A stretch of 19,986 nt of DNA. Source: Collinsella sp. AF33-16 (lineage in GTDB: Bacteria; Actinomycetota; Coriobacteriia; Coriobacteriales; Coriobacteriaceae). Position 1 is the stretch's first letter. Each line of letters starts with the position of its first letter. Below the pieces are notes generated by a model. The model was not told the DNA's origin. It made no database searches and saw only the letters and a list, made by a program, of their open reading frames with translations. The DNA lies in NCBI RefSeq assembly GCF_003475325.1, contig NZ_QRQC01000030.1, positions 1-19,986 of the forward strand. The letters are read 5' to 3'. This document shows positions 2,971 to 19,986 of the stretch, piece after piece. Both the position numbers and the translations under genes were made by a program.

Positions 2971-2973
2971 ACA

Positions 2974-4119
2974 GTGGCTAAAATTGGAATCTTAACTTCA
3001 ACTCCGTCGTTTAATGACAATTATGGAGCTATTTTGCAGGCATATGCCCTGCAGCGCTGGTTAATTCTTGAGGGACATGAACCCAGCGATATTCTTTATC
3101 ATGGGGATAATGAACCTATGTTAAATAAAAAGATGAGTCCGGTCGTTCGTTTTAAGGGTATTTTCTTTTCAGGGAACACCTTCCGACAGGCGCTCGGAAC
3201 TGTTTTAACAAAAAAGGTTCGTCAAGCCCGTAGTAGGTATTTTCAGAAGTTTCAGAATGCTCACCTCGTAATATCAAACGAAACTTATGATTTTGCAGCA
3301 TTAAAAAAATCTGTCGATGATTTTGATTGTTGTATTTGTGGAAGCGACCAGGTATGGAACCCAAGAGTCCATGGAGGAGTCAATGACCCTGGTTATTTCT
3401 TGCAATTTGCTGTTGGCGAGCGTCTCACGATAGCATATGCTCCAAGCTTTGGTGTTTCCGTTCTTCCCGATGCGTGCTACGACAATCTTGCAGAGTTTGT
3501 TGCCGGGATTGATTATGTTTCCGTACGCGAGGATTCCGGCGCTAAGCTACTTGCCGATGCTGGAGTTAAAGCTCCGGTAGTCGTTGATCCGACTATGCTT
3601 CTTACCGATAAAGACTACGATAAGATTGCAATTCGACCTGACTGGCTTCCGGAACGTTACATAGCGGTATACAAATTTGGAGAGCGTAACGAATTCGATT
3701 CAAAAATCAAGGATACTGCCAATAAGCTTGGTCTTCCTATTATTAATATACCTGCATCCGTTGACTCCTCTTTCAAAACGCGTTGGGATATTGGCCCGTC
3801 AGAATTTATTGCAATTATTCGCGATGCTGATTTAGTCTGTACCGATTCCTTCCATGCCACGGTATTTTCGACGTTATACAAAACGCCATGTATTGTTTTT
3901 CCACGAGATGCTATCGGCTCCAAAAAATCGATGAATTCAAGAATGGAAGGCTTGCTTGATCGTCTTGGAATGAGCTGCAGGTACGTAGCTTCATCTTCAG
4001 AATGGGATCGGGCCCTTGCAATGAAAATTGATTATTCAGAAGCTCATAATAGGCTTGCCGCATGGCGTTCCGATAGCGAAAAATATTTGATTTCAGCTCT
4101 TTCAGGAATCGGCGAATAG
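2974..4119 (+). CDS. Polysaccharide pyruvyl transferase family protein
   Basis: Members of this family (PS_pyruv_trans) transfer pyruvate from phosphoenolpyruvate to a sugar, giving acidic ketal-decorated polysaccharides. The 381-residue protein begins with IGILTSTPSFNDNYGAILQAYALQRWL, the standard N-terminal pattern of the family. CICGSDQVWNP follows, then YVSVREDSGAKLL and finally LVCTDSFHATVFSTLYKTP, the conserved D-S-F-H segment. The start is GTG at 2974, three bases after capE, with only a distant GAGGCGG near 2956, so it may rely on coupling to capE. The gene is A+T-rich, in sharp contrast with capE. The stop abuts the ATG of the FrhB-like gene. The pair occurs together in many polysaccharide loci, which suggests a joint role, but the acceptor sugar cannot be told. 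Confidence 0.83.
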   Translation: MAKIGILTSTPSFNDNYGAILQAYALQRWLILEGHEPSDILYHGDNEPMLNKKMSPVVRFKGIFFSGNTFRQALGTVLTKKVRQARSRYFQKFQNAHLVISNETYDFAALKKSVDDFDCCICGSDQVWNPRVHGGVNDPGYFLQFAVGERLTIAYAPSFGVSVLPDACYDNLAEFVAGIDYVSVREDSGAKLLADAGVKAPVVVDPTMLLTDKDYDKIAIRPDWLPERYIAVYKFGERNEFDSKIKDTANKLGLPIINIPASVDSSFKTRWDIGPSEFIAIIRDADLVCTDSFHATVFSTLYKTPCIVFPRDAIGSKKSMNSRMEGLLDRLGMSCRYVASSSEWDRALAMKIDYSEAHNRLAAWRSDSEKYLISALSGIGE

Positions 4120-5304
4120 ATGGCAGGTAATGAGTCAGTGACTATCGAGGACATCGATGGGATTTCCTCCTTATGCACAGGATGTGGAGCATGTGCCGCT
4201 GCGTGTCCGACGGGTTCAATTTGTATGACAACCGATAGGGAAGGCTTTTCTTACCCCCGCGTAGATAATAATCAGTGCATTGCCTGTCACAAGTGTCTCA
4301 ATGTCTGTCAGGCGTCTCGGGATAGTGCCAAACATAACCCGATTGAAATCGAAGTGCTATATGCCTCCCGAAAAGACGAAAGAGCCGCTGGATCATCTGG
4401 CGGAATCATGGGTCTACTAGCCAAGCGAGTTTTAGAGTCAAATGGTGTAGTGTTCGGAGCGGTTTTCGATGCGGAGGGCCATAGGGTTATACATGCATCT
4501 ACGGAAACGCATTCCTTGGAGAAAATCCTACGTTCTAAGTATGTCCAAAGTGAGGCGTGGCCAACTTATGCTCGTGTAAAACAGCATCTATGTTCTGGTG
4601 AACAGGTCCTGTTTTGCGGCACGCCTTGTCAAGTTATCGGACTAAACCGGTATCTTGGAAAACAGTACTCCAATTTACTGACAGTTGATTTCTTCTGTCA
4701 CGGTGTTCCTTCGCCCGGTTTTTTTGCTGATTACGCTCGTCTAGTCGAAAGTCAAAAGGGGAGCCGTTTGACTGATGTGACCTTTCGCGAGAAAAGTCAC
4801 GGTTGGAGAGAGCAGCACATGCGTTGGTACTTTTCAGATGGATCGAATATAGAAGAACCTTCCCTCGATAATTGCCATTACTTCTTCTTCTTGGGCAATT
4901 ATTCCTTAAGAAAATCATGTTATACGTGTGAGCTGTATAAACGTCATGAAGCAGATATAACACTGGCAGATTATTGGCTAATTGACCCCGCGTTTGATGA
5001 CGATCTTGGCACCTCTCTTGTTCTTGCAAATACGGAAAATGGATTAACCTTTCTGAAGGATATCAAGAAAGACACTATTGAGGTCCCTGTTGACAATTTC
5101 GACTTCGAAATTTATCGACATAGCTACTGCCCTAATAAACGCGCTAACTTTTTTGATTGTTACGTAAATGAAGGTATTGAAGCAACATGCGGTTCTTATT
5201 TCGATAATGAGCATCGCGTATGGTGTATTAGAAACAGATGCGGCGCAATTAAAAACGCTTTTGTGTCAAAAATCAAAAACTGCATAGGGGCATTTACAAG
5301 ATAA
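4120..5304 (+). CDS. FrhB-like iron-sulfur protein (coenzyme F420 hydrogenase beta-subunit family)
   Basis: The 394-residue protein opens with two 4Fe-4S ferredoxin motifs: Cys19, 22, 25 and 29 (CTGCGACAAACP), and Cys53, 56, 59 and 63 (CIACHKCLNVCQ). It then has the FrhB N-terminal pattern (YASRKDERAAGSSGG, GVVFGAVFD) and the C-terminal pattern (LFCGTPCQVIGLNRYL, VDFFCHGVPSP). A further Cys cluster (SCYTCELYKR) and ADITLADYW follow, as is usual for the versions found in polysaccharide loci. The family name comes from F420-dependent enzymes. In capsule loci the electron donor and the reaction are not established, and a redox change on a sugar is only a guess. The gene abuts the pyruvyl transferase and overlaps the flippase start as TAATG at 5302-5306, so the three look like one transferred cassette. 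Confidence 0.82.
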   Translation: MAGNESVTIEDIDGISSLCTGCGACAAACPTGSICMTTDREGFSYPRVDNNQCIACHKCLNVCQASRDSAKHNPIEIEVLYASRKDERAAGSSGGIMGLLAKRVLESNGVVFGAVFDAEGHRVIHASTETHSLEKILRSKYVQSEAWPTYARVKQHLCSGEQVLFCGTPCQVIGLNRYLGKQYSNLLTVDFFCHGVPSPGFFADYARLVESQKGSRLTDVTFREKSHGWREQHMRWYFSDGSNIEEPSLDNCHYFFFLGNYSLRKSCYTCELYKRHEADITLADYWLIDPAFDDDLGTSLVLANTENGLTFLKDIKKDTIEVPVDNFDFEIYRHSYCPNKRANFFDCYVNEGIEATCGSYFDNEHRVWCIRNRCGAIKNAFVSKIKNCIGAFTR

Positions 5305-6692
5305 TGGGCAGTAAAAAAAGCTTTATTAAGAACTCATTGCTGTTTATGCTTGGTTCTGGATTATCAAAAGCACTCGGCATCATTATGTTGCCGTTATACA
5401 CTTCTCAAATTCCAACAGAAGATTACGGTGCTTACGATATTTCGCTTACTCTTATCACAATTGTAAGTTCGATTGCATACTTCGAACTTTGGTCTGCCGT
5501 CTTACGTTTTATGTATGATCGCTCAGACAGAAATAGTAAGGCAACAGTTGTTCGATCTGGTCTATATCTGTTACTATGCGCGACGGTAGTATTTGTAATA
5601 CTTGGAGTGGTATTGTGCTCATCCCTTTCTCTGGGTCATCCGGTATGGTTGATGAGTTATGGAGTTGCAATATCTACGTCAACGTTTTTTTGTTTTGTAG
5701 CAAGGGGCTATGGAAAGAACGCTGAGTTTACGTTATCTGGTATTTTGAGCAGTGTTGTAATTGCAGTCACAAATATTGGTCTGATTCTTTTACTCCATTT
5801 TGACTATTCCGCTCTGTATATCAGTTATGTAATAGGCTCAATAGTTCAGTGTGTTTATCTTGGCTGGACTATTGGTATTGGCGAGATAGTCAAGTCGTCA
5901 GAAAAGGATAACGAACTAACAAAAAGCCTATTGCGTTTTGCTGCGCCCTTATGCTTGAACACGGCTTCTTATTGGCTATTATCAAGCGCTTCTCGACTTG
6001 TTTTCAACTATATGAGCGGAAATGCTGCAAGCGGCGTGTTCTCTGTTGGAAATAAATTTGGCCAGGTCATAGTTCTTGCAACAACGTGTTTTACATATGC
6101 ATGGCAAGACCTTTCATTCTCAGAAAGCTCTAAAGGGGCAGACTCTCTTTTTTATACACGTGCATGCCGTACGTATCTGACTTTCTTATCGGCCGCCTTT
6201 GCTCTTCTGCTCCCCATGCTCAGGTGTGCCTTTCCACTTTTCGTCAGGGGTTCCTATGGCGATGCAATCGATATAGTCCCGCTTGCCCTTGTCGTTGCTT
6301 TAATTAGTGGATACTCTGGCTTTGTTGGCAACGTTTTTTATGCTATCAAAAAAACAAAGACAATTACCGTTTCAACGGTAATTGCAGGTTTAGTCGCTGT
6401 AGGCTTTTCGCCTTTATTTATCAATATTTTAGGCGCAAATGGAGTAAATGTTGCCGTTCTTCTCGGGTTTATTGTAAATCTTGCAGTTAGAGCGTTCGTA
6501 CTAAACCGAGAAATCGGCTTTAAGCTCTGTTATAAAATCGTGATACCGTGCTCGTTGTGGATAGCGCTTTCTTGTGTTGCGTTTTGGTATGGACTGCTGT
6601 GGTCAACAATTTCTTTGATATGCAGTATTTTCATTGCCTGTTACCTATTTAAAGACGAAGTATCGTCATTATTTCATCTACAAAATAAGTGA
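5304..6692 (+). CDS. Oligosaccharide repeat-unit flippase (Wzx-like, MOP superfamily)
   Basis: This 462-residue integral membrane protein has a start typical of Wzx proteins: SFIKNSLLFMLGSGLSKALGIIMLPLYTS, then IPTEDYGAYDISLTLITIVSS. I count about a dozen hydrophobic segments over the whole length, with short basic loops. A central YMSGNAASGVFSVGNKFGQVI matches the repeated half of the MOP fold. The role would be to flip undecaprenyl-diphosphate-linked repeat units to the outer face for the Wzy polymerase. The start overlaps the FrhB-like stop (TAATG). The gene is A+T-rich like its two upstream neighbours and ends 34 bases before the likely start of G+C-rich capF, so it closes the low-G+C cassette. 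Confidence 0.85.
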   Translation: MGSKKSFIKNSLLFMLGSGLSKALGIIMLPLYTSQIPTEDYGAYDISLTLITIVSSIAYFELWSAVLRFMYDRSDRNSKATVVRSGLYLLLCATVVFVILGVVLCSSLSLGHPVWLMSYGVAISTSTFFCFVARGYGKNAEFTLSGILSSVVIAVTNIGLILLLHFDYSALYISYVIGSIVQCVYLGWTIGIGEIVKSSEKDNELTKSLLRFAAPLCLNTASYWLLSSASRLVFNYMSGNAASGVFSVGNKFGQVIVLATTCFTYAWQDLSFSESSKGADSLFYTRACRTYLTFLSAAFALLLPMLRCAFPLFVRGSYGDAIDIVPLALVVALISGYSGFVGNVFYAIKKTKTITVSTVIAGLVAVGFSPLFINILGANGVNVAVLLGFIVNLAVRAFVLNREIGFKLCYKIVIPCSLWIALSCVAFWYGLLWSTISLICSIFIACYLFKDEVSSLFHLQNK

Positions 6693-6726
6693 CCAATTTG
6701 CCTAGATTTTTGGAATGGAATTAATC

Positions 6727-7944
6727 TTGAAAGTACTAATCACTGGATCGAAGGGGTTCGTGGGTAGGAACCTCTGCTGTGCGCTGAAGAACATAAGGGA
6801 CGGCAAGGACCGTCGCGAGAAGTATGCGAGCCTGCTGCCCCTCGAGGTCATGGAGTACGACGTCGACTCGACGCCCGCTGAGCTGGAGGACTACTGCTCC
6901 CGCGCCGACTTCGTCTTCAACCTGGCCGGCGTCAACCGCCCCAAGGACCAGGCGGAGTTCATGGAGGGCAACTTCGGGTTCGCCTCCACGCTGCTGGACA
7001 CCTTGGAGCGCCACGGGAATAAATGCCCCGTCATGCTCTCCAGCTCCGCGCAGGCGAGCCTGTCGGGCCGCTTCGAGGGCTCGGTCTACGGCGAGTCCAA
7101 GCTCGCGGGGGAGGGCCTGTTCCGCGAGTATTCCGAGCGCACGGGCGCCCCGGTACTCATCTACCGCTTCCCCAACCTCTACGGCAAGTGGTGCCGCCCG
7201 CGCTACAACTCCGCCGTGGCGACCTTCTGCGACGCCATCGCCAACGGCCGCCCCTACACCGTGAACGACCCCTCGGTGGAGCTCGAGCTCCTCTACATCG
7301 ACGACCTGGTCGACGAGATGCTGGGCGCCCTGCTGGGGCGTGAGCACCGCTGCGGATACGAGGGGCTCGAGCGCATCGAGGGAGATCAGTTCTGCTACGT
7401 CCCAGAAACCGACGTGAAGACGCTGGGCGAGATCGTCTACCTGCTGGACAGTTTCCGAGACAGCCGCGAGACGCTCTCGGTGCCCGACCTGACCGAGGGC
7501 TCCTTCTCCAAGAAGCTCTGGAGCACGTTCCTGTCCTACTACGAGCCGGGGCACTTCGCCTACGGACTCAAGCCTAACGTGGACGTGCGCGGCTCGTTCA
7601 CCGAGTTCCTGCGCACGCCGGAGCGCGGCCAGGTCTCCATCAACGTCTCGAGGCCCGGTATCACCAAGGGCAACCACTGGCACATGAGCAAGTGGGAGAG
7701 GTTCCTGGTGGTCTCCGGCACCGCCTCCATCAAGCTCAGGAAGGTGGGGGAGGACTCCGATGGAAACCCGTTCCCCGTCGACGAGTACACCGTCTCGGGT
7801 TCGGACATGCGCGCCGTGGAGATGGTCCCCGGCTACACGCACTCCATCACCAACCTGTCCGACACCGAGGACCTCGTGACGGTCATGTGGGCCAACGAGC
7901 CCTTCGACCCCGAGAATCCCGACACCTACTACGAGGAGGTCTAG
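6727..7944 (+). CDS. capF: Bifunctional UDP-sugar 3-epimerase/4-reductase CapF
   Basis: CapF carries out the second stage of UDP-L-FucNAc synthesis. In the Staphylococcus aureus enzyme the C-terminal zinc cupin epimerises C3 and the N-terminal SDR domain reduces C4 with NADPH. Both parts are visible here. The SDR has TGSKGFVGRN near residues 6-15 and YGESK with Tyr121 and Lys125. The cupin has TKGNHWHMSKWE (His317, His319) and GYTHSITN (His372). I chose the TTG at 6727 because it gives the family-typical MKVLITG start and has GGAA at 6717-6720. An ATG at 6715 adds four residues but leaves no room for a ribosome site. Codon use is strongly G+C-rich, as in capE and capG. The 405 residues are slightly longer than the S. 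aureus protein. Confidence 0.88.
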   Translation: MKVLITGSKGFVGRNLCCALKNIRDGKDRREKYASLLPLEVMEYDVDSTPAELEDYCSRADFVFNLAGVNRPKDQAEFMEGNFGFASTLLDTLERHGNKCPVMLSSSAQASLSGRFEGSVYGESKLAGEGLFREYSERTGAPVLIYRFPNLYGKWCRPRYNSAVATFCDAIANGRPYTVNDPSVELELLYIDDLVDEMLGALLGREHRCGYEGLERIEGDQFCYVPETDVKTLGEIVYLLDSFRDSRETLSVPDLTEGSFSKKLWSTFLSYYEPGHFAYGLKPNVDVRGSFTEFLRTPERGQVSINVSRPGITKGNHWHMSKWERFLVVSGTASIKLRKVGEDSDGNPFPVDEYTVSGSDMRAVEMVPGYTHSITNLSDTEDLVTVMWANEPFDPENPDTYYEEV

Positions 7945-7948
7945 CCGC

Positions 7949-9133
7949 ATGGGCAAGGACTATTCCGATATCGCATTCGAGGACGACGGCCGCCTGAAGC
8001 TGCTCATTATCGTGGGCACCCGCCCCGAGGTCATCCGCCTGTCCGAGGTCATCAAGAAGTGCCGCCGCCACTTCGACTGCCTGCTGGCGCACACCGGTCA
8101 GAACTACGACTACACGCTCAACGGCATCTTCTTCCGCGACCTGGAGCTCGCCGACCCCGACGTCTACCTGGACGCCGTGGGCGCCGACCTCGGCGAGACC
8201 GTGGGCAACATCATCGCCGCGAGCTACAGGCTCATGGTCCAGGTCCAGCCCGACGCCCTTCTGATCCTGGGCGACACTAACAGCTGCCTGTCCGCCATCG
8301 CGGCCAAGCGCCTGCACATCCCCATCTTCCACATGGAGGCGGGCAACCGCTGCAAGGACGAGTGCCTGCCCGAGGAGACCAACCGCCGCATCGTCGACGT
8401 GATCTCCGACGTCAACCTGGCCTACTCCGAGCACGCCCGCCGCTACCTGAAGGACACCGGCTGCGCCCCCGAGCGCACCTACGTCACCGGGTCGCCCATG
8501 GCAGAGGTCCTGCGCGCCAACCTGGAGAAGATCGAGGCGTCGGACGTCCTGACCGAGCTCGGGCTGGAGCCGAAGAAGTACATGCTGCTGTCCGCCCACC
8601 GCGAGGAGAACATCGACACCGAGGTCAACTTCACGAGCCTGTTCACCGCCATTAACGCGCTGGCCGAGAGGTACGACATGCCGATCCTGTACTCCTGTCA
8701 CCCGCGCTCCCGCAAGCGCCTGGAGGCCACCGGCTTTCAGCTCGACCCCCGCGTCCGCATGCACGAGCCCATGGGCTTCCACGACTACAACTGCCTGCAG
8801 ATGAACGCCTTCGCCGTGGTGTCTGACTCCGGTACCCTGCCCGAGGAGTCCAGCTTCTTCGCGAGCGTCGGGCATCCGTTCCCGGCGGTGTGCATCCGCA
8901 CCTCCACCGAGCGCCCCGAGGCCCTGGACAAGGCGTGCTTCACGCTGGCCGGCATCAGCGAGCGCGGCCTGCTCCAGGCCGTCCGCACCGCCGTCGAGCT
9001 CGATGCGGAGGGGTCGCTGCCCGAGGCTCCCGTCCCCGACTACGCCGACGAGACCGTGTCCACCAAGGTGGTCAAGATCATCCAGAGCTACACCGGCGTC
9101 GTGGACAAGATGGTGTGGAGGAAGAGCCTCTAG
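7949..9133 (+). CDS. capG: UDP-sugar C2-epimerase CapG (WecB-like, non-hydrolysing)
   Basis: CapG performs the last step of the pathway, the C2 epimerisation to UDP-N-acetyl-L-fucosamine. The 394-residue protein has the ordered motifs of the WecB/UDP-GlcNAc 2-epimerase fold: IIVGTRPEVIRLSEVI near the N-terminus, AHTGQNYDY, HMEAGNRCKDECLPEETNRR, then LLSAHREENID and VVSDSGTLPEESSFF. Sequence alone would allow UDP-GlcNAc 2-epimerase (making UDP-ManNAc). I prefer CapG because it directly follows capF and capE is present upstream. GAGGAGGT at 7933-7940, inside the end of capF, is a near-ideal ribosome site eight bases before the ATG. This is the last G+C-rich gene: composition falls immediately after its stop. 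Confidence 0.87.
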   Translation: MGKDYSDIAFEDDGRLKLLIIVGTRPEVIRLSEVIKKCRRHFDCLLAHTGQNYDYTLNGIFFRDLELADPDVYLDAVGADLGETVGNIIAASYRLMVQVQPDALLILGDTNSCLSAIAAKRLHIPIFHMEAGNRCKDECLPEETNRRIVDVISDVNLAYSEHARRYLKDTGCAPERTYVTGSPMAEVLRANLEKIEASDVLTELGLEPKKYMLLSAHREENIDTEVNFTSLFTAINALAERYDMPILYSCHPRSRKRLEATGFQLDPRVRMHEPMGFHDYNCLQMNAFAVVSDSGTLPEESSFFASVGHPFPAVCIRTSTERPEALDKACFTLAGISERGLLQAVRTAVELDAEGSLPEAPVPDYADETVSTKVVKIIQSYTGVVDKMVWRKSL

Positions 9134-9623: not shown

Positions 9624-12023
9624 ATGGGAACTGATGTCTTTGTTCTTGGTGACGATCAGAGCTATGCAGCAAGCATGGCCAATGACTACACCTTGAAGCC
9701 GTCGTCTGAGATGAGCGGTCGTTCAAGTTCGCGAGCGCATATTCAAGAAGTTGCTGCCGAAGTGCTTTCGAAGGAAAACGGGACTGGCAAGGTCTTTTCG
9801 ATCTACGGGACCGGCGGGCTTGGGAAGACGTTCCTCATGGAAGAGTTGTATTCCGACTTTACACATAGGTTTACCCACAATACCGTTGTTACCAGGCATA
9901 GCTTTGAAGGAGAAGAGATAACCTCTGAAGAGAAGATTCTAAAAGAGCTCTCGGATCTTCTTGCATGCAACGGAGTGCCAAGTCCAACCTTTAGGATGAA
10001 TTACTACGCATGGAGAGCAAAAGCATCGAATTTTGCATTGGCTAAAGCCGAGTTCTGCGCTGATTTTGAGCAAGCAAAAAATAAGGGAGTCGAGATTTCG
10101 ACGATGTTGTCGGGTCTTGCTGCTCCCTTTATTGATCAATTTACCCAAGGCCTTGGTGGCTCTATTCTTAATGCTGCCATTGAGATTGGGGTTTATGCAG
10201 CCGATTCTATTAAAAGTGCCAAAGCGTGTAATGAATGGAAGAGCCTAACGGAAGAGAAAACCTCCAGTGATTTGAAAAGGTCATTGGCGGCTAGTCTTAA
10301 GTCTGATATCGAAGCGTGGACTGGTCGCAATGAACGGAAGCTTATCTTCTTTTTGGATACATTTGAGAAGCTGGGTTGGGTTGCTGGTGAATGGCGAATA
10401 GGTCGATACGATTGGGCAAAGACCATCTCGGAGGCAAAGGGGTCTCTCTGGATTGTCGCTGGGCGCTGCAGACTTGCATGGAAAAATGTGGTTCGTTTTC
10501 CTGTTCAGCTTGAGCCCATGAGCTCATCTGAAGCAGACGACCTGTTGGTGAAATGCGGAGTCAGTGATTCCGAGCTGCGTAGCTTGGCTGTGGAGAAAGC
10601 CAGAGGAATACCCGTATACTTAATAATGCTTGCTGACATGATTAATAGATCGTCAGTCGCGGAGGCAAGGCGCGACCTTCTTTGCATTGTTGATTATGAT
10701 AATCTCGTCGAAGTGTATTTACGGGGCCTCGATGCCTCCCTTAAGCCTGCCATCTATACCGCTGCTTTTATTGAGTACTGGGACTACGAATTTATGATGG
10801 CAGTGGGGGAATCCTTCATTGATCCTAATGCTATTGCTCAACTTGAAAATCTTTCCTTTGTATGGAAGCGGCAAGATAGCTTTGAAATGCATGAGGTTGT
10901 CGCCGATCTCATTCGTAGATCTGCTAAGGGCCCTGTCGTATTGAAGCTTTTCAAGGCGTGCGGAGATTTGCTCGGGCAGTTGGGCTCAGACGATAAAAGG
11001 ACTGCCTATGCAAAGGATACTTATAGACTTCATGTGCTCAAGGCAAGGCAACTTCTTGCTGTAGAAGGTGTGGACGTTCTTGGATCCGAGGCAGCTTTTA
11101 ATGCTCGCATGCAATATGCCGAGGCGGCATGGCACAACGGTCAAGTTGAGCAGGCATATGACCTTTATAAAGAAATTCAATGTTCTTACGCTCCTACAAG
11201 CTCTGCAGATGAACCTAGCATTTATTTCTTGAGAGCAAAACTCAAGACTGCGGCTCTTAAAACTCAACTTTGGTTAACCAGAGGCGAAAGAACATGGCAT
11301 GAACAAGCCATCGCAGATACCGTTGAAGTTTTAAATGACGTAAGGGAGCATTATCCGAATGAACGGCTCATTTATCTTTCGGCGCTTAATGATCTTGGTA
11401 TTTCCTGGAAACGATTCAAAGACTTCGACAAGGCTTTCTACTATCAGAATCAAGTTGTGAGAGCGCTTAAGGATAAAAAAGCCAAGGAACTAGATGCCGA
11501 TGAGGCTCGCTTTATTAACAACTACGGAGCAACATGCCAACAATACGGTGCCAAGCTTAAACAAGAGGGCAACGCTTCCGAAGGGCAAGAGTACCTTAAA
11601 AGGGCTTTGAAGTATTACGACAAGGCCTACAAAGCGCGTAAGACTCTGTTTGGCACAAACAGCCTTCAGGCTTTAATCGTGCTTACCAACAAGGGCGTTG
11701 CCAACATGTTGATGGGCAAGTATCCTGAAGCTGAAAACATGCTTGAAAAAGCCTATAGAGGCTTTAAAAGCGGTGGTTTCCCCACGGGAGATTCCTCTTA
11801 TTTGAGAGCTAGATTTCAGCTGGCCAATGTTAGTTCTAACAAAGCAAGAGAGCTCAAGGATGCTGGCTTGATCGATGAGGCGCGCATCGAGGGGCGTAAA
11901 GCGCTTGAGTTGCACAAGAAGGTTTATAACGATAAGAAAGAATGCCTAACTGAATGGGCTGTTGATACGGGAAAATCGAGAGATGCGGTAAAGGCCGCTG
12001 AAAAGTTTTTGGCAGAGCTTTAG
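9624..12023 (+). CDS. STAND-type NTPase with C-terminal TPR repeats, candidate defence protein
   Basis: The 799-residue cytoplasmic protein has GTGGLGKT (residues 62-69) as Walker A and LIFFLDTFEK (from 240) as Walker B. SLWIVAGRCRLAW follows, with a possible sensor Arg281, and GIPVYLIMLAD (328-338) resembles the GxP motif of NB-ARC/STAND ATPases. A winged-helix-like stretch follows to about residue 450. The last 300 residues are helical TPR-like repeats (ALNDLGISWKRFKDFDKAFY, then KALKYYDKAYKARKTLFG-like units), the usual ligand-sensing part. There are only about 35 residues before the NTPase module, so no N-terminal effector is visible. Known STAND proteins sense phage or stress signals by C-terminal repeats and oligomerise. 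Here the effector would have to be absent, cryptic, or a separate protein. The start is ATG at 9624 with GGGG at 9613-9616. A transcription-regulator ATPase is the main alternative. Confidence 0.75.
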   Translation: MGTDVFVLGDDQSYAASMANDYTLKPSSEMSGRSSSRAHIQEVAAEVLSKENGTGKVFSIYGTGGLGKTFLMEELYSDFTHRFTHNTVVTRHSFEGEEITSEEKILKELSDLLACNGVPSPTFRMNYYAWRAKASNFALAKAEFCADFEQAKNKGVEISTMLSGLAAPFIDQFTQGLGGSILNAAIEIGVYAADSIKSAKACNEWKSLTEEKTSSDLKRSLAASLKSDIEAWTGRNERKLIFFLDTFEKLGWVAGEWRIGRYDWAKTISEAKGSLWIVAGRCRLAWKNVVRFPVQLEPMSSSEADDLLVKCGVSDSELRSLAVEKARGIPVYLIMLADMINRSSVAEARRDLLCIVDYDNLVEVYLRGLDASLKPAIYTAAFIEYWDYEFMMAVGESFIDPNAIAQLENLSFVWKRQDSFEMHEVVADLIRRSAKGPVVLKLFKACGDLLGQLGSDDKRTAYAKDTYRLHVLKARQLLAVEGVDVLGSEAAFNARMQYAEAAWHNGQVEQAYDLYKEIQCSYAPTSSADEPSIYFLRAKLKTAALKTQLWLTRGERTWHEQAIADTVEVLNDVREHYPNERLIYLSALNDLGISWKRFKDFDKAFYYQNQVVRALKDKKAKELDADEARFINNYGATCQQYGAKLKQEGNASEGQEYLKRALKYYDKAYKARKTLFGTNSLQALIVLTNKGVANMLMGKYPEAENMLEKAYRGFKSGGFPTGDSSYLRARFQLANVSSNKARELKDAGLIDEARIEGRKALELHKKVYNDKKECLTEWAVDTGKSRDAVKAAEKFLAEL

Positions 12024-12139
12024 TGGGCGATTGTTGGCTGTTTGTTTGTATTGATTCGTGTTGGATCGTCTAACTGTAAAAGTCTTTAAAGGCCACTATT
12101 TACCGTTTATCGAGAAGAAGTTTATTGCTACGACACGAG

Positions 12140-12148
12140 TGCTAGAAT
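12140..12148 (+). promoter_or_regulatory. Candidate extended -10 promoter before the three-gene unit
   Basis: TGC directly precedes TAGAAT (12143-12148), matching the extended -10 pattern TGnTATAAT at all but one core base. A TTTATT 16 bases upstream of TAGAAT is a poor -35, which is acceptable for an extended -10 site. It lies 33 bases upstream of the ATG at 12182, whose ribosome site is AGGGGTG around 12169-12175. The 158-base gap from 12024 to 12181 shows nothing else that I can support, including no clear terminator for the STAND gene. Confidence 0.42.
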
Positions 12149-12181
12149 CAGCTCATCAATCTCTATATTAGGGGTGTAGCA

Positions 12182-15040
12182 ATGTTTGATACCAAAATCG
12201 CTCTTGAGCAATTTAATGCGCTTTCTGATGTTGCAAGAAAGCGATTGAGTAGCGCCCTTGATTCAATAGAGCATGGTATTTCACCTAATACAGATGCCAT
12301 TCATGATCTGAGCCTTTCTCTTTCAGATTTAAGATCAGCATATGAGAAAGCAAAAGGTGCTGCCATTCATTGCGCTAACGCCGACGGTGTGAATGATGCT
12401 GATGCAGCTTTTTGCTCATATATTGAAACAATTGACGAAAATGAACGCCGACAATTAATTGCTGCATTACAACCAATTATTTCTTTACTTGAGAGGTTTG
12501 TTAGAGTTAAGTCTGACAAGGATGCCTTTATGGGAGACCTTATTCCCATTCAAAGCGAGGCATCAGACTTGCTTGATAGTCTAAAAAATGACCCACTGTC
12601 TTTAAATCAGGGCGAATCGGGTTTAAATAACAATGTAGTTAGGCCTAAACAGCTTTTTATGGAGGCCCTACATCATGAGGACATGACCGATGATAGGGGT
12701 ATCGAACTTTCTGAAGAACTTGCCGGCCTCTTGCCGCAGCGTATTATCTACGGTCTTATAGCAGGTGTCTACTATGAACCCCACAACCCGAATCCCATAA
12801 AACAGCCGGAGCCTCAGGCTGCAGTTTATCAGGCAAAGAGCGACCCTGTCTTGCCTGTTTCCGAAGTGAAGAGTGAAGCCTTATCCTCTATTGAAGAAGA
12901 TGGTGGATGCGCTGAAAAAGAATCGGCTCCATTAGCGCCTCAAAGGCCTTCTCTTGGCAAGAAAAAACTCGGCATTAAGAAACTCCAGAGCGACGTATTG
13001 AATGCTGGATATGTTGCTAGATTTACATTCTCGCTGCTCGCGTCATGGCCTGGACTCACTTCAGGCCAGATTGCTCGAATTGCATCATCGTTTTACGAAT
13101 GGGATACCGTTCCCGAAGCCGTTCAGACGATTATCGATCGTCTTGTCAAAAAGACTTATTTAGAATCAGTCGCGGTCAGTGACAATACTCAATATTTCCT
13201 AACGGTCCCTGCTGCTGTACTTTGTAGCAAAGAAACCGTATATAACTACAAGAATGCTTGCCGAAAATCACCTTGGTTAATACCGATGCCGGAGAGCAGG
13301 ATTTCAAACGGCATTAGAAATATAGACACGGCTGCTGAGCGCATCAAAGATATTAAGTCCAGGGACATTGTAGAGGTTTTGCGTTCATACGACCTTCTGA
13401 TTGATTACTTATGCTATGTCGAAGATTCAAATTCGGGAGTGAACAAATCAAAACTGCTCGATAGCCTCTTTGGGAGTACTCCTTCTGCTGTTTTGGTCTA
13501 TTTTAATGATCAGCTCATTAACTGCGTCCTCGCTCCCGAAGGCGAAAGACTTTCGTTGGAAGGCAACAACGTTCTGTCCAACGTTGCGCCAAAAGAAAAC
13601 GTCGATAGCGCAAATATCGACCATTGGTTCGTTCTAAAGGATGGCTTATTAGAAGACGCTTTTGCGAAACTTGAATTCGCGGATGAAGAAGATGAAGATA
13701 ATACGCCATTACCTTCATCATCTGAATCCTTGGAATCAGACCAAGGTCCTGCTGACTTCGCTATAGACTCCGAGGTTGTCATTCTGAATGAGGTGCATGA
13801 GTGCGATCGTAATAATCTCACCTCAACTGATGATTCAAATGAGGCAGAGGGTGTGGCGGTCGATTCGGGCGCCCAAGAAGCCGAACATGAAAACTCTGAT
13901 GTTTCTATTCATCCTGACATCACGGATGAAATGGATTCGAACCAAATGGCCAGCATACTTGTCAAACGCAAGATGCCTCCATCAGACGATGAAGCTCGAC
14001 TATTTGTCGGCAAGCTGCTTAATGAGCAAAATAGAATCCAATCGCTAGTTGCAGCGCATTATTTTCTTAAGGCCCTCTCGTTGGAGGGCGATCGACCTTG
14101 GGCTCAGTTGGCTTCACTTCAGATGGCCTATGGCTGCGATTCTAAAATTGAACGTCACCTGTATCGCGGCTCCGAATTGAAGGCTGCGTTTCCTACCGTT
14201 ACTGCCGATACTAGCGCCTTACAGCTGGCCGCTTATTGTAGGGCAATGGTCGCTCCTGCAGTTGCCTATGACTATGAGCTGCATGCGACCGCGGAAACGT
14301 TTGGCAAGAACTTTGATGAGCTCTTTCCGCAATTTGTTGTATTAAAGCCGCTGTTTAATGAGCTGCTCATAATATGGGATGTTTCTCCGGAGCGAGGTCT
14401 TGATAGTCAGATAGTTGAGATGCTCGGTGGAGAGGAGAGAAGAGACCAGGCAATAGCCGAGACCGAAAGTAAGGCAAGGCTGCTATGCGCGCCTCCTAAA
14501 GTAAAGGCGATGATTAAAGGCATCCCCGAATTTCTTGAGTTGAGTTTTGGCGATTCGAGCGATCTTGGCTCTGTTCTAACGATTGTTGCTAATGATGACC
14601 GCGAATCTCGTCCTCTAATTGAAGACGTTCTTGCTCAGTTCAAGGTTGGCAGTTCCGATGCCGAGCAGGATAAAGCCATTTCTGACTTTATCGATTCGAA
14701 ATGGCGTATGGCGGTAAATGGTAAGAAAAATAGAGGGATGAATCTTGAATATGCCGCTCGTAAGCATTTGGTTAGTGCCATTGAAGACCGCATCGAAGTA
14801 TTAAAGGAGTGGAACACCCTAATCGGTTCTTCATTTAGAGAGGGGGCGCTAGAACAGCTGGGAAATCTCAAGGACAGGATTCTTGTTTTGACCGATGAGG
14901 TTTCTGTTTCTGGAGCAGCTTATAATCCGGTGGATTCGACTGTGCTGGACGCTTTATTTACCGATATAAAGCGTTTACTGACGGGAAATTCTTCCTGCAC
15001 AATGGACTATGAACAATTTCTTGCCACTGGATGCATTTAG
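12182..15040 (+). CDS. Large protein of unknown function, first gene of a three-gene unit (winged-helix-like segment)
   Basis: I do not recognise this 952-residue family. The protein has no signal peptide and no membrane segment. Residues 1-150 are helical and hydrophilic. After a Pro/Glu-rich linker, residues about 258-340 (GKKKLGIKKL, then LTSGQIARIASSFYEWDTVPE and VKKTYLESVAV) read like a basic patch followed by a winged helix-turn-helix, so DNA binding is possible. Residues about 500-590 are a long acidic, Ser-rich and probably disordered linker. Residues 595-952 are again helical, with SILVKRKMPPSDDEARLFVG at the start, and show no recognisable catalytic motif. The gene is followed after 27 bases by the ATPase gene, so the two are probably expressed and may act together, with this protein as scaffold or sensor. 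The ATG at 12182 has AGGGGTG upstream. Confidence 0.7.
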   Translation: MFDTKIALEQFNALSDVARKRLSSALDSIEHGISPNTDAIHDLSLSLSDLRSAYEKAKGAAIHCANADGVNDADAAFCSYIETIDENERRQLIAALQPIISLLERFVRVKSDKDAFMGDLIPIQSEASDLLDSLKNDPLSLNQGESGLNNNVVRPKQLFMEALHHEDMTDDRGIELSEELAGLLPQRIIYGLIAGVYYEPHNPNPIKQPEPQAAVYQAKSDPVLPVSEVKSEALSSIEEDGGCAEKESAPLAPQRPSLGKKKLGIKKLQSDVLNAGYVARFTFSLLASWPGLTSGQIARIASSFYEWDTVPEAVQTIIDRLVKKTYLESVAVSDNTQYFLTVPAAVLCSKETVYNYKNACRKSPWLIPMPESRISNGIRNIDTAAERIKDIKSRDIVEVLRSYDLLIDYLCYVEDSNSGVNKSKLLDSLFGSTPSAVLVYFNDQLINCVLAPEGERLSLEGNNVLSNVAPKENVDSANIDHWFVLKDGLLEDAFAKLEFADEEDEDNTPLPSSSESLESDQGPADFAIDSEVVILNEVHECDRNNLTSTDDSNEAEGVAVDSGAQEAEHENSDVSIHPDITDEMDSNQMASILVKRKMPPSDDEARLFVGKLLNEQNRIQSLVAAHYFLKALSLEGDRPWAQLASLQMAYGCDSKIERHLYRGSELKAAFPTVTADTSALQLAAYCRAMVAPAVAYDYELHATAETFGKNFDELFPQFVVLKPLFNELLIIWDVSPERGLDSQIVEMLGGEERRDQAIAETESKARLLCAPPKVKAMIKGIPEFLELSFGDSSDLGSVLTIVANDDRESRPLIEDVLAQFKVGSSDAEQDKAISDFIDSKWRMAVNGKKNRGMNLEYAARKHLVSAIEDRIEVLKEWNTLIGSSFREGALEQLGNLKDRILVLTDEVSVSGAAYNPVDSTVLDALFTDIKRLLTGNSSCTMDYEQFLATGCI

Positions 15041-15067
15041 ATTGATTCTGGTCTTCCTGTTTTGAAC

Positions 15068-17524
15068 ATGGATCTCTCCCGTGTCGTTTATTGCGAACCT
15101 TGGAGGGTTCTGCTCGAGCACCATCTGAGCCCTAAACTTGATTCAGCTGAGGCTGCTAGGCAGATTGCTGATCCAAGTTCGAGGCTATTTGACAATTTAG
15201 GCCAGCTCGACAACATCTTGAATCTGTGTGGCGCAATAGAGGGGGTTCTGCCTCCGAGCGACCTTGATCGTAAAAATGCGCATCAGTCAGCCTTGGATGA
15301 GCTGGATAAATATAAAGATATGCTCGAAATGGCGTATGCCTACAACAAAATTGATGAGCAACAGAAGGAACGCTTGCTAGAAATAGCTCGTCTGAACATG
15401 GGATTCTTCTTTGACTTGGAAGACTATGCCAATTGGAAGTGGTTCCTTAAGGGACTTCAGAAGCAGGTCGATGATCTTTCGCTTTCGCGTAAGACCGATC
15501 TTGATCGCAGGCTATCTTCTTGTCGTCGTAAGATCCAAGGTAAAAAATCCTCCTTGCTCGATAAGGCTACCGTTTTGTTTGAAGAGGGCAACTATGCTGT
15601 AGTTGAAGAGTATTTGAATAGAATAGATGCTGGCAAGCTTGATTTGGACGTAACGCCTATTACCGAGAGCGATGTTTTCTCGGAGTTTATTAGCGATGAT
15701 GTTTATAAACAGCTATTTGATTGTTGCAAGAAATCTAACAACCGAAACGATTTTGCCAAGTTCGCAAAGTCCTATATTAATAAGAATGCTCCGAAGAGTT
15801 GGGATACTGATTACAAAGATTCAGGCTATAAAGAAAACGCCTTGAAAATGGTTGGAAGTTGGCCAAAGCGCGGAAATAAAACCGGAAGTGCCGATTGCAA
15901 GGATATTGCTACATTCTTGAGAGCTCTTGGATTGTCTGTTAGGCAAGTTGAACGCACTTCTCAAGGCCAAGCTCGGTACTCCGCGTCGCTACGCCCCGCT
16001 TCTCGCGGAATGACTCAATACAGTCATCCTATTGCGGCATTTGGCACTAAAATGCCGTCAAAGCTAGATGTTTTGCTGTTGTTCGGTTCATTATCGCCTA
16101 GAGATATCTTGTCTAAAGTTCGTGCTGCCGGACTGACGAGGATGTCCCTCGTATTTGTTGATAGCCCAATGAGACTCGAGGATAAAAGAGCCTTGGCAGA
16201 GCTATCACATGCGAGCAACAATCATCTTCAATTTATCGTTATTGATCAGGTCCTTGCATTGTTCTTGGCCTTGCACGAAGAGCCCGAACGTCTTCAGTTA
16301 ATGCTGAAGTGCGCCTTGCCTTTTACGTTTTATCAACCATTTGTACGCGATGGCGGTCCTACCCCAGACGAAATGTTCTGCGGCAGGGATGCTGAGCTAA
16401 GAAGCATTATGGATCCTGGTGGAGCCATAATCGTCTATGGTGGCAGACAGTTGGGCAAGACTGCGCTTCTTCAAAGAGCCGAAAGCCTCTGCCAAAAACC
16501 TGATTCCAAAGAGTTCGCAGTCTATGTCAACATTCTTAATTGCCTGACTGAAAAGGATGTTGCCTGTAAGGTTGCTGAGGCTTTTGGTGCAAAAGCTGAA
16601 CTTTCGCTTGGAAAGGTTGAGGACATTCGGTCCCTTGCGGCAGCGATTGCTAAAGCCATGAACTCCAAGCTTGCTTCCAGGGTTCTGTTGCTTCTTGATG
16701 AGTGTGATAATTTTCTCAATGCTATTGCTGAGCACCATTACAGGGAGCTCCAGCCTCTTATCGACCTAAAAAGTGAATCTACTAATAGCTTTAAGTTTGT
16801 GATTGCGGGCTTGCATAATGTTTGCAGAGCAAAAAACGCTATTCAGGAGAACGGCTTCTCGGGCCAAGTTGGTTCACCCATTTGCGTCAAACCATTATCA
16901 CCCCAAGAAGCGCTGCAGCTAATTTCTAGGCCGCTGCTTTATTTGGGCTTCCAAGTTGATAGGTACCCTCATCTGGAGACCATCCTTACAAACACAAATT
17001 ACTATCCAGGAATCATCCAGTTCTTTGGGCATACACTGGTTGAAACCATGAAAGAACAGTATGGCGTTTATTATCGTGCTGCTGATGGACAGCCTCCGTA
17101 TCCTCTCCTTGAGGAGCAACTTGGCGAAATCATTAACAAGAATGATTTGAACAACAGTATTAGAGAAAAGTTCAGGCTCTCTCTGGAGCTCGATGAGCGA
17201 TACTTTATGCTTGCTCGGTGTATCGCCATGTTGAGCTTTGCTGCAGAACGCGAGGATGATCAGAAGTCCCTGCTTGACGGCTTCAGTATCGACGCTATTC
17301 AGAAATCAGCGATCGAATTCGACATCTCATGCCTAAAATGCGAATCCCAGAGCGCTCTGGAGATACTGCTTGACGAAATGGTCGAGATGGGTATTTTGAC
17401 TAAACCTTCTATGACTGTTCATTGTTATAAACTGCGCAGGCATTCGTTCTTGAATATCATCGGACCCAATGAAGATGCTGTTTTCGATGACATCATCGAA
17501 GCTAATGAGTGCGCTAAGGTTTAA
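15068..17524 (+). CDS. P-loop ATPase with helical N-terminus and extra alpha/beta domain, second gene of the unit
   Basis: The 818-residue protein has three regions. Residues 1-275 are helical and resemble a repeat or coiled scaffold. Residues about 280-415 look like an alpha/beta domain (ATFLRALGLSVRQVERT, KLDVLLLFGSLSPRDILSKV, RMSLVFVDS, NNHLQFIVIDQVLALFLAL). Then PFTFYQPF and MFCGRDAELR lead into the ATPase, with Walker A GGRQLGKT (458-465) and Walker B VLLLLDECDN (539-548). FKFVIAGLHNV is a sensor-like strand, and the C-terminal 120 residues look winged-helix-like. The GR-x-x-E entry and YGGRQLGKT resemble the MNS/STAND side of AAA+ ATPases. The start is ATG at 15068, and a TTG at 15062 is also possible. 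Neither has a visible ribosome site, so coupling to the upstream gene is likely. The specific family is not recognised. Confidence 0.75.
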   Translation: MDLSRVVYCEPWRVLLEHHLSPKLDSAEAARQIADPSSRLFDNLGQLDNILNLCGAIEGVLPPSDLDRKNAHQSALDELDKYKDMLEMAYAYNKIDEQQKERLLEIARLNMGFFFDLEDYANWKWFLKGLQKQVDDLSLSRKTDLDRRLSSCRRKIQGKKSSLLDKATVLFEEGNYAVVEEYLNRIDAGKLDLDVTPITESDVFSEFISDDVYKQLFDCCKKSNNRNDFAKFAKSYINKNAPKSWDTDYKDSGYKENALKMVGSWPKRGNKTGSADCKDIATFLRALGLSVRQVERTSQGQARYSASLRPASRGMTQYSHPIAAFGTKMPSKLDVLLLFGSLSPRDILSKVRAAGLTRMSLVFVDSPMRLEDKRALAELSHASNNHLQFIVIDQVLALFLALHEEPERLQLMLKCALPFTFYQPFVRDGGPTPDEMFCGRDAELRSIMDPGGAIIVYGGRQLGKTALLQRAESLCQKPDSKEFAVYVNILNCLTEKDVACKVAEAFGAKAELSLGKVEDIRSLAAAIAKAMNSKLASRVLLLLDECDNFLNAIAEHHYRELQPLIDLKSESTNSFKFVIAGLHNVCRAKNAIQENGFSGQVGSPICVKPLSPQEALQLISRPLLYLGFQVDRYPHLETILTNTNYYPGIIQFFGHTLVETMKEQYGVYYRAADGQPPYPLLEEQLGEIINKNDLNNSIREKFRLSLELDERYFMLARCIAMLSFAAEREDDQKSLLDGFSIDAIQKSAIEFDISCLKCESQSALEILLDEMVEMGILTKPSMTVHCYKLRRHSFLNIIGPNEDAVFDDIIEANECAKV

Positions 17525-17540
17525 AGGAAAGTGTGGCTTC

Positions 17541-18704
17541 ATGGGCATGGACCATTCGTACATATGGTGGACCAATGTTACGGGTCCTCGGATGTTTATA
17601 AAATCAGTCGTGAGTTCTCTCTCGGACAATTACAATGTGCGATTGCTTCTGCCCAAGTTGTGCCCTTGGCCAAATAGGATGAGGGAGTTAATTGCTGAAG
17701 CCGCCCAAAGCGAATACGCGCTGGAAGGTGTCACTATTGATGTGGTCACACCGGATGATTTTAACAATGCTCAGAGTCCAGTTGAAGTGCTGCTTGATCG
17801 CTACGCTCTGAATGACGTAAGACTAAGATATAGGAATTCACTTAATCCCGCTGAGTATCTTATCCAGAATCACGTGTTGAAAGACAGAATCGTCTGGTTG
17901 ACAGGTTTTGAGCCGAAAGACATTAAAACTTGGATGGGCTTAATCTGCGGGTGGCCATCTACAACACCTTTAGATGGATTGTTTGTTGTAGAGACTTCTT
18001 TTGATGGATGGTCTTCGCTGGATCAAAATGAAAATGATGGGTGCAAGACTATCAGTTATCGTGATTGCATAGGCGAGTATAGCGTTTCGTTATTCAATGG
18101 TTTACTTGTGGATGAAATGCCTTCAATGGCTTTTTCGGGTCAAGAAAAAAGCTACTGCGCCTCGCTGCTCTCCAACGTCTGCGGTGGGGACGTTGAGGTG
18201 TCAGATATCTTATCCGAGAACCTCGAACTTATGCTTGATAACAGCTATGATGTGCTCTGTTCTGTTTTAGATTGCTTTGATAATGATAGGGTCAAAGCTG
18301 ATCATAATAATGTTCTTGCTATCGCTCTGCGAGCCGATAAGGGCTCAATCGATCGAAGAGTCTGGAAAGCACAGGTCGAGATTCTGTTCCCCATCTTGGA
18401 GGCTAGGCGATTGGCGGTGATAGCAAGAGTACGTGATCAGCTTACCGCCGTTTTGGAAAGCAGTGATGTCTCTCAATTTGGCGAGCGCGTATCTGAACCC
18501 GAGGATGTTGAACTCGGAACCCTTGTATACCTAATGGCGCAAACTAACGATGACGGCGAAAGACTTTTATATATCCCCGATCGAGAGCTCAGGAACGAAA
18601 TCCATCTTCTTCGCGAATGCCGCAATATTATTGCGCACCACAAAATATGCGAATGGAGCCAAGTTAGATGGTTACTTGAATCAAGTGGAGATTCAGACGT
18701 ATAA
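17541..18704 (+). CDS. Unknown protein with C-terminal HEPN-like R-x4-H motif, third gene of the unit
   Basis: The 387-residue protein starts MGMDHSYIWWTNVTGPRMFI, followed by VRLLLPKLCPWPNRMREL. This is a conserved-looking Trp-rich N-terminus that I cannot assign. The middle is alpha/beta to about residue 230, then helical. Near the C-terminus, LLRECRNIIAHHKICEWSQV contains R361-N362-x3-H366, the R-x4-6-H spacing with a polar residue after Arg that marks many HEPN ribonuclease or RNA-binding domains. The position at the end of a helical segment also fits. This suggests, without proving, that it is the effector of the preceding ATPase. I chose the ATG at 17541, which has AAAGGAAAG at 17523-17531. 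A longer frame from 17469 would overlap the upstream gene by 56 bases without a ribosome site. Confidence 0.68.
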   Translation: MGMDHSYIWWTNVTGPRMFIKSVVSSLSDNYNVRLLLPKLCPWPNRMRELIAEAAQSEYALEGVTIDVVTPDDFNNAQSPVEVLLDRYALNDVRLRYRNSLNPAEYLIQNHVLKDRIVWLTGFEPKDIKTWMGLICGWPSTTPLDGLFVVETSFDGWSSLDQNENDGCKTISYRDCIGEYSVSLFNGLLVDEMPSMAFSGQEKSYCASLLSNVCGGDVEVSDILSENLELMLDNSYDVLCSVLDCFDNDRVKADHNNVLAIALRADKGSIDRRVWKAQVEILFPILEARRLAVIARVRDQLTAVLESSDVSQFGERVSEPEDVELGTLVYLMAQTNDDGERLLYIPDRELRNEIHLLRECRNIIAHHKICEWSQVRWLLESSGDSDV

Positions 18705-19169
18705 ATTTCTAGATAAGACACTTTCGCAATAATGCATTTATTGATTGGCTGGCCCATGGTTAAACGTCTCAATATTAATCGATATAAGAAATTAAACGAT
18801 ATTGCTATTGAATTTGACTGTGGCGTTAATGCCATATCGGGAACGAATGGCACTTGCAAGACTACCCTGCTGCATATGATCAGCAACGCATACAAAGCTG
18901 TCAGCAGGAAAGATCACCAATTTAAAGATCCCGAAGCATTAAGAATGATTAATTCTCTCAATGCTCAAGTGAATACGAAGATCGAAAAATTAGCAAAAGG
19001 TGATAGGCAGTATAATAACCCTGCCCCTGGCTATAAAGAGGGGTCGTTGTTTGAAGTCGAGTATTTAGATGGTTCGCGACTGTCTTTTAGAAAGCATAAT
19101 TCGGCCGTCAATAATCGATATGCAATTAAGCCCTATTACAAAAAAGGCAGTCATGATAGGTTGCCAGCC

Positions 19170-19172
19170 TAG
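19170..19172 (+). other. In-frame amber codon inside the OLD-like ATPase
   Basis: TAG lies between GCC and CCA, with the same frame open for over 400 bases before it and almost 800 bases after it. The flanks encode RLPA and PVLYLGL, which read like one continuous strand-turn block. A single base change from TCG (Ser), CAG, TTG, TGG or similar would produce it. Confidence 0.85.
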
Positions 19173-19960
19173 CCAGTGCTTTATCTCGGACTGGCTCGTC
19201 TAATTCCTTGGGGAGAATATCAAGACGACGGTGCGCTGAAAAACTCATCATTCATACTCCCTGAGGACGCCCAGTCTGAGCTGAGCGATCTTTATGCTCG
19301 AATCACCGGAATTCACGCAAGCTCATTTCAAGCACAAAGTCTAAGAGACATTAAGAAAAGACAAGAATTTAGCACGGATATTGAAGGCGTAGATTCAAAT
19401 ACAGTATCTAGCGGCGAAGAGAATGTCTTGATACTTCTAACCGCCTTGCTCTCATTAAAAAGATATTATGAGGCTTTGGACGAGAGCTCTCAATCGGAAA
19501 CGGTTTGTAGCCTATTGCTTGTTGACGAGCTTGATGCAACTCTGCACCCTTCGTTCCAATATGCTTTGCTTCAATTGCTTATTGAATACTCGACGCTATT
19601 CCATATTCAAATAGTCTTTACTACTCACAGTATCTTTATGTTAAAGCAAATGTTTAAAGAAAAACAGAATGTAATTTACCTGTATGACGGCGCAGGTGTT
19701 GTTTCCAAAATGGACAACCCTGATATTGAAAAAATAGAGATGTATCTCACAAATAGATCCCGAGCGGACCTATTCTCTGAAAAGAAAATACCTGTATTCA
19801 CCGAAGATGAAGAAGCAAGGTGCCTCATTCGCCTGTTGATATCCCATCTATGCAAACAGGCAGATGGATTTAATCACTTAAACAGACATATCCATTTGAT
19901 AGACGGAAATCTTGGCGGTGACGTTATATCTAGCCTATTTAAAGATGAGTATTTGCCCGC

Positions 19961-19986
19961 ATGAGCACCGCTGAATATTGCGAAAC
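19961..19986 (+). CDS. Open frame at the right edge: TOPRIM continuation or start of the next gene
   Basis: ATG at 19961 overlaps the TGA at 19962-19964 (ATGA) and encodes MSTAEYCE before the edge. It could be the next gene in an operon. More likely, in my reading, it is the true continuation of the ATPase after a one-base loss: inserting one base near 19960 joins SLFKDEYLPA to MSTAEYCE. Eight codons cannot decide this. Confidence 0.3.

Follow-up and report, generated by a model that had tools for sequence, protein, structure and literature searches.

One stop codon splits a gene pair into an apparent trio: a giant STAND ATPase and a degenerate-STAND, HEPN-like partner in Collinsella

How many genes, and what kind of system, are encoded by three large open reading frames (ORFs) on contig NZ_QRQC01000030.1 of Collinsella sp. 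AF33-16? The window analysed here is the whole 19,986-nucleotide stretch of that contig in which they lie, all on the + strand: A (12182–15040, 952 codons), B (15068–17524, with the ORF opening at 15062 or 15068, about 820 amino acids) and C (17541–18704, 387 amino acids). A first-pass annotation took them for three co-directional genes that may encode the recognition part, ATPase switch and R-x4-H effector of one defence system. The ORFs and their shared strand are borne out, as are the gaps of 27 bases between A and B (to the ATG at 15068) and of 16 bases between B and C. Three genes are not. A and B are the N- and C-terminal parts of one giant gene, AB, split by a single TAG codon; the proposed recognition part and ATPase belong to one polypeptide, and the unit is therefore a duo of a giant STAND ATPase and its partner C.

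Exactly one stop, the in-frame TAG at 15038–15040 (+ strand), lies between A and the end of B, which share a reading frame. The continuous reading of about 1780 codons aligns without a break to proteins that are single chains. Among 126 A- or B-type proteins, 24 distant single chains cross the joint, with matches that start ahead of residue 900 and run past residue 1000; P0029 spans it over residues 663–1775 at 45% identity to AB. Nine close relatives (86–99.8% identical) also cross the joint, with a sense codon in place of the TAG. The AB homologue is a single ORF in five intact loci, at 1810 (L002), 1792 (L003), 1886 (L015), 1985 (L017) and 1654 (L018) amino acids; the contig of L001 ends inside it, it is broken in L016, and in L014 it holds a DDE transposase gene (12022–13680 of that locus). 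The protein searches returned only sequences of 0.55–1.75 times the query length, so that intact proteins of about 1780 amino acids could not appear in searches with A or B, and the broken close forms listed are uninformative on how often the gene is broken.

We consider it unlikely that A and B are nonetheless separate chains, a split scaffold and ATPase in a genuine three-gene unit, with translation restarting at ATG 15068. B does have its own ATG, P0025 starts exactly at the corresponding residue 963, and P0145 (952 amino acids, 99.7% identical, in a cluster of 82 sequences) stops at the same codon as A. However, no clear ribosome-binding site was seen by eye before ATG 15068, the intact distant relatives are single chains, the nine close relatives read through the stop position, and the next gene, encoding an OLD-like ATPase, is also cut by a TAG, which points to decay.

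The P-loop ATPase that had been recognised in the second ORF stands. AAA_22 (E 4.9e-8) is the sole Pfam match of AB above cut-off, and is found above or below threshold in relatives. B is laid out as an N-terminal stretch, a putative alpha/beta domain at residues ~290–430 (read by eye from the alignment), the STAND ATPase and a C-terminal tail, with the motifs GGRQLGKT (Walker A), LLLLDE (Walker B) and AGLHNVxR. Walker A and Walker B (hhhhDE) patterns are present in all 21 rows of alignment A4, and AGL[HR][ND][VI]xR in 20 of them, its arginine being a candidate arginine finger. Among Protein Data Bank (PDB) profiles, AB matched 6mfv (E 2.4e-4), in which a STAND is combined with a TPR sensor, and Cdc6 (E 1.6e-3). 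In A no domain was recognised, its one Pfam match lying below threshold, and residues 471–600 form an acidic stretch. Across the same seven distant relatives, identity is 13–26% over residues 1–280 versus 31–49% in the STAND core, a contrast typical of a fast-evolving sensor arm, which the N-terminus of AB may be.

C itself falls into two parts. The larger, residues 1–254 (17541–18302, + strand), is predicted to be a degenerate STAND/ORC-like AAA domain in which the Walker motifs are not in place. Across the 18 C-type rows of alignment A5, a Walker A pattern occurs once (in L003, by eye not at the P-loop position) and a Walker-B-like pattern twice; no arginine-finger equivalent was identified in C. 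Residues 255–387 (18303–18704, + strand) form a helical domain, a predicted HEPN-like RNase, carrying W275, E324 and R361-N-x-x-A-H366. R-x4-H is found in 18 of 18 aligned partners with both R and H invariant; W275 and E324 are equally invariant in the diverged partners, and the N and A nearly so. Alignment A5 is without the partners of L015, L018, L039 and L031–L034 and the broken C of L016; the motifs of the L015, L018 and L039 partners were read separately, and the partners of L036 and L039 were taken from annotated genes.

The HEPN superfamily rule, as given in the relevant part of PMC3710099, is an Rx4-6H motif with a polar residue after the arginine, and C fits it. In the predicted model the HEPN part is mostly helical (predicted local distance difference test, pLDDT, 89.6), with R-x4-H placed where a long helix ends. 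A structure search with this part gave no significant match, an absence that is no evidence against a HEPN fold, and a sequence search of solved structures with C-type partners found nothing significant (best E 0.55). HEPN_Swt1 matched below cut-off in four of nine partners scanned. Of 173 non-overlapping ORFs with at least 250 amino acids in 29 loci, 14 contain R[NR]xx[AS]H, and 11 of these 14 are the partner gene, although the non-overlap filter dropped some true partners from this count. The first-pass term 'HEPN-like protein' agrees with the invariant R361-x4-H366, but leaves out the degenerate STAND domain that makes up most of C.

Do the two genes travel together? Searches with C led to eight loci, and in all eight a B homologue lies directly upstream on the same strand; the two overlap or lie one base apart in each of the seven loci where both ends could be placed (L016 was not placed). 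C occurs in 3 of 396 genomes of the class of genome G001 (L001, a Coriobacteriaceae metagenome-assembled genome) and in 4 of 391 genomes of the class of G002 (L002, an uncultured Clostridium). Full-length B (E < 1e-200) is present in the same seven genomes as C and in no other of the 787 in both classes. Such an overlap would have a chance of about 3e-17 if B and C were independent, a figure to be read knowing that G001 and G002 were chosen for holding C and that alignment A4 included loci first found through C; B in the C-found loci was thus expected, whereas the lack of full-length B in any other genome was not expected beforehand.

Five further genomes matched B more weakly (E 1e-17 to 1e-41), and four of them were opened (L031–L034). 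Here a giant STAND gene (2283, 2286, 1741 and 1621 amino acids) overlaps a second gene by four bases, and all four second proteins carry R-x4-H near the C-terminus (RNNVSH, RNNVSH, RNAVVH and RRKCMH). The STAND of the L034 partner matches active families. No match to C or B was found in phages. Plasmids gave no near-DNA match to this version and no match to C; viral contigs gave no match to C and one diverged relative of B (L035), which also has the pair. When the plasmid-borne partner of L042 was searched against plasmids, its sole match was itself, which suggests that the partners diverge fast.

The analysis shows the pairing of the genes, the conserved Walker and R-x4-H residues, the predicted STAND/ORC-like fold of C and the single-TAG split of AB; sensing, assembly, docking, RNA cutting and a role in defence are inferred. 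With reasonable though not high confidence, we read AB and C as a two-gene intracellular immune module in which AB is the switch and C the effector. The fast-evolving N-terminal arm of AB would likely sense an invader, upon which the STAND ATPase near its C-terminal end would likely drive assembly of a ring or filament. C would probably dock through its degenerate STAND on the active one of AB, and its C-terminal HEPN-like domains, brought together in the assembly, would likely form a dimeric RNase, which would cut host or phage RNA and so stop infection. One result weighs against this reading: profile comparison of the L031–L034 second proteins with C did not demonstrate homology (E 0.074 and 0.59), and this failed link lowered our confidence in the module a little. 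The division of labour proposed earlier survives in its parts and in the co-occurrence of B and C, but for a duo, since recognition and ATPase share one chain. The earlier observation as a whole is partly confirmed, and its interpretation partly supported.

Could C instead be an adaptor or non-catalytic subunit in the manner of BrxB and BrxF, with a purely structural R-x4-H? We regard this as somewhat unlikely. Inactive STANDs are read in published accounts, in the parts dealing with BREX and MoxR-vWA systems, as sensors or regulators, and the HEPN fold of C was not confirmed by structure search. Against this, R, H, W275 and E324 are invariant in the diverged partners and R-x4-H ends a long helix; further, BrxB is described as compact, whereas C has some 130 further, mostly helical residues. 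BrxB and BrxF of BREX are, in the section of PMC12839542 that treats them, inactive STAND/ORC-like P-loop folds (iSTAND) beside a larger ATPase machinery. C resembles them in its inactive STAND/ORC-like fold and in its pairing with a larger ATPase, and differs in that BrxB is described there without a C-terminal helical bundle. The BREX genes PglZ, BrxC and methylase were not seen among nine window proteins or ten neighbouring genes scanned with PADLOC, a scan that did not take in every neighbour.

If AB and C form an immune module, does it belong to a described system? The nSTAND2 prediction is reportedly the work of Kaur, Iyer, Burroughs and Aravind in 2021. It concerns a two-gene operon encoding two STANDs, of which one is inactive and fused to an effector, in most cases GT4 or HEPN (eLife 10:e70394, PMC8195603). 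In the part of that paper devoted to it, the operon is a prediction without experiment and is described as mobile, its proteins both have an arginine finger, and the STAND family is placed closest to CR-ATPase, Dap3/S29 and RNA12. The Collinsella pair likewise has two adjacent genes with a STAND core in both products, and NTP-binding motifs eroded in one product, here the one that carries the putative HEPN-like effector domain. Section 15 of PMC8195603 describes no giant N-terminal arm, no pPIWI_RE or kinase fusions and no DrmE-type partners. Compared by published description, the AB–C pair works like the nSTAND2 two-gene operon and would probably be a member of it. No nSTAND2-named model was among the Pfam results for the window proteins and their relatives. 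In the literature searched, which was without bioRxiv and most subscription journals, a functional test of nSTAND2 two-gene systems was not found, and PMC8195603 was the only relevant mention of nSTAND2.

Other systems are less close in design. HEPN-fused DUF499 ATPases (BREX-Related type 1, or Hma) carry HEPN on the DUF499 ATPase, with a helicase and a methylase, according to the portions of PMC12839542 and PMC3710099 on them; their linkage of HEPN (Swt1/Abi2 type) with an AAA ATPase in a defence locus resembles the present pair, but here the HEPN-like domain is part of a second protein, whose STAND is inactive. The DefensePredictor study, in its relevant part, reports validated Escherichia coli systems with HEPN and P-loop domains (PMC13092281). 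With PADLOC, A and C had no match and B had two weak ones; Pfam and NCBIfam yielded nothing above cut-off, and no full match, for either A or C. Avs families were absent from the PADLOC matches of A, B and C. From Avs (AVAST) and other STAND sensors the AB–C pair differs in having its effector on a separate gene. The earlier remark that the unit matches no nameable system thus agrees with the database searches, but overlooks a published prediction of the same design.

How widely does the arrangement extend? Plasmids from other phyla carry diverged versions of it. B matches 27 plasmid records, and of 15 that were opened a C-type partner adjoins in 8 (Azospirillum, Thiodictyon, Salinibacter, Streptomyces fungicidicus, Microvirga, Methylocystis, Agrobacterium and Bradyrhizobium) and not in 7. 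An AAA_33 kinase-type match is present in the partners of Azospirillum, Microvirga, Bradyrhizobium and Agrobacterium, in the last below cut-off. On the Azospirillum oryzae plasmid (L036, 933–12373), a 3256-amino-acid protein combines an N-terminal pPIWI_RE module (PF13111, PF18157, PF13032) with the same STAND ATPase, and the next gene carries R-x4-H and an AAA_33 domain. The giant proteins of L041 and L045 are annotated as RNaseH-domain proteins, with partners similar to that of L036. On the Cupriavidus oxalaticus plasmid (L043, 8371–11172), the gene after the giant STAND gene encodes a DrmE_C (DISARM) protein (E 1.5e-12) in place of a HEPN-type partner; the next genes in Burkholderia (L049) and Euzebya (L044) are similar in size to that of L043. 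L031–L033, from the class of G001, have a four-gene version with two added upstream genes of matching sizes (about 760–790 and 508 amino acids), which in L031, the only locus scanned, match FHA, and RyR with weak kinase-like matches.

We tentatively suggest, as a possibility that we rate as less likely than not, that these loci sample a broad modular platform. In this platform a swappable N-terminal recognition half (an unrecognised arm in gut bacteria, Argonaute-like pPIWI_RE in Azospirillum) would sit on a giant STAND, with a degenerate-STAND R-x4-H RNase as partner, sometimes with a kinase domain treating the cut RNA ends; elsewhere the partner would be DrmE-like, or FHA and RyR/kinase-like genes would be added. 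Separately, we asked whether cyanobacterial-type proteins have a C-like domain fused to their STAND tail. The comparison gave an hhalign E of 0.0017 over 64 columns, and with a wider C alignment an E of 0.025 (score 25.2, 51 columns); 40 column-shuffled C profiles scored at most 17.4, reversed C against the tails 17.0 and reversed C against B 23.6. Given these controls it is too weak to claim and is kept as a lead.

What, then, is the state of the Collinsella copy? The gene after the unit (18732–19964) encodes the OLD-like ATPase (AAA_15/AAA_21) and is one frame cut by a single in-frame TAG at 19170–19172, with the N-terminal AAA match in one piece and the C-terminal match in the other. It is very improbable that TAG serves as a sense codon in this DNA and that AB is made at full length: two neighbouring genes with one in-frame TAG each would suit such recoding, but TAG is the last codon of five other window genes, once directly before the ATG of the next gene. 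Recoding was rejected on this ground, TAG being an ordinary stop in this genome. A programmed read-through structure after the stop was also rejected, with no RNA fold signal (z -0.34) and no Rfam match.

With one TAG in AB and one in the OLD-like gene, the simplest reading is a defence block that is decaying or has been silenced. The break in AB has probably impaired or abolished the activity of the module in this strain, unless ATG 15068 serves as a restart site and both halves still cooperate. That the block as a whole has no current function and is a pseudogene island in decay is a serious possibility, which we rate slightly below an even chance: besides the two TAG codons, AB is interrupted by a transposase in L014, and both AB and C are broken in L016. 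Yet C is open with its conserved residues and B retains its motifs, and such decay concerns this copy rather than the system. As the interruptions are single codons, decay would be recent or the halves have been kept.

The surroundings agree with the first-pass annotation in part. Its two neighbours hold, the gene before the unit (9624–12023) encoding a separate STAND-like protein with TPRs (KAP_NTPase, NB-ARC, TPR_12), for which no named defence system matched beyond weak hits. The candidate extended -10 promoter TGCTAGAAT is present (12140–12148, + strand, 33 bases before the first ATG) but unproven; its pattern occurs twice in the window against 2.5 expected by chance, and it therefore stays only a candidate. 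The A+T-rich composition also holds (unit G+C 43–48%) but is not distinctive, since several upstream polysaccharide genes are equally A+T-rich (39–46%), with others at about 65%. These surface polysaccharide genes (674–9133) are strongly mixed in G+C, at 39–67% in sliding windows, and are in parts up to 94–97% identical in DNA to genomes of the class of G001, which makes that class the most likely origin of the window. DNA matching near relatives stops at 9123–9127 in all six loci opened, and no empty site was found in them.

The apparent new trio is thus the product of one stop codon. An inactive, effector-bearing half in two-STAND operons was a prediction of 2021, and the present pair offers it in compact form, with two genes, intact relatives and the residue pair R361/H366. 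With it one could ask whether an NLR-like assembly can receive its effector by way of an inactive STAND. If the modular platform is real, its pPIWI_RE form would be a case of guide-directed recognition wired, via a STAND switch, to RNA cutting.

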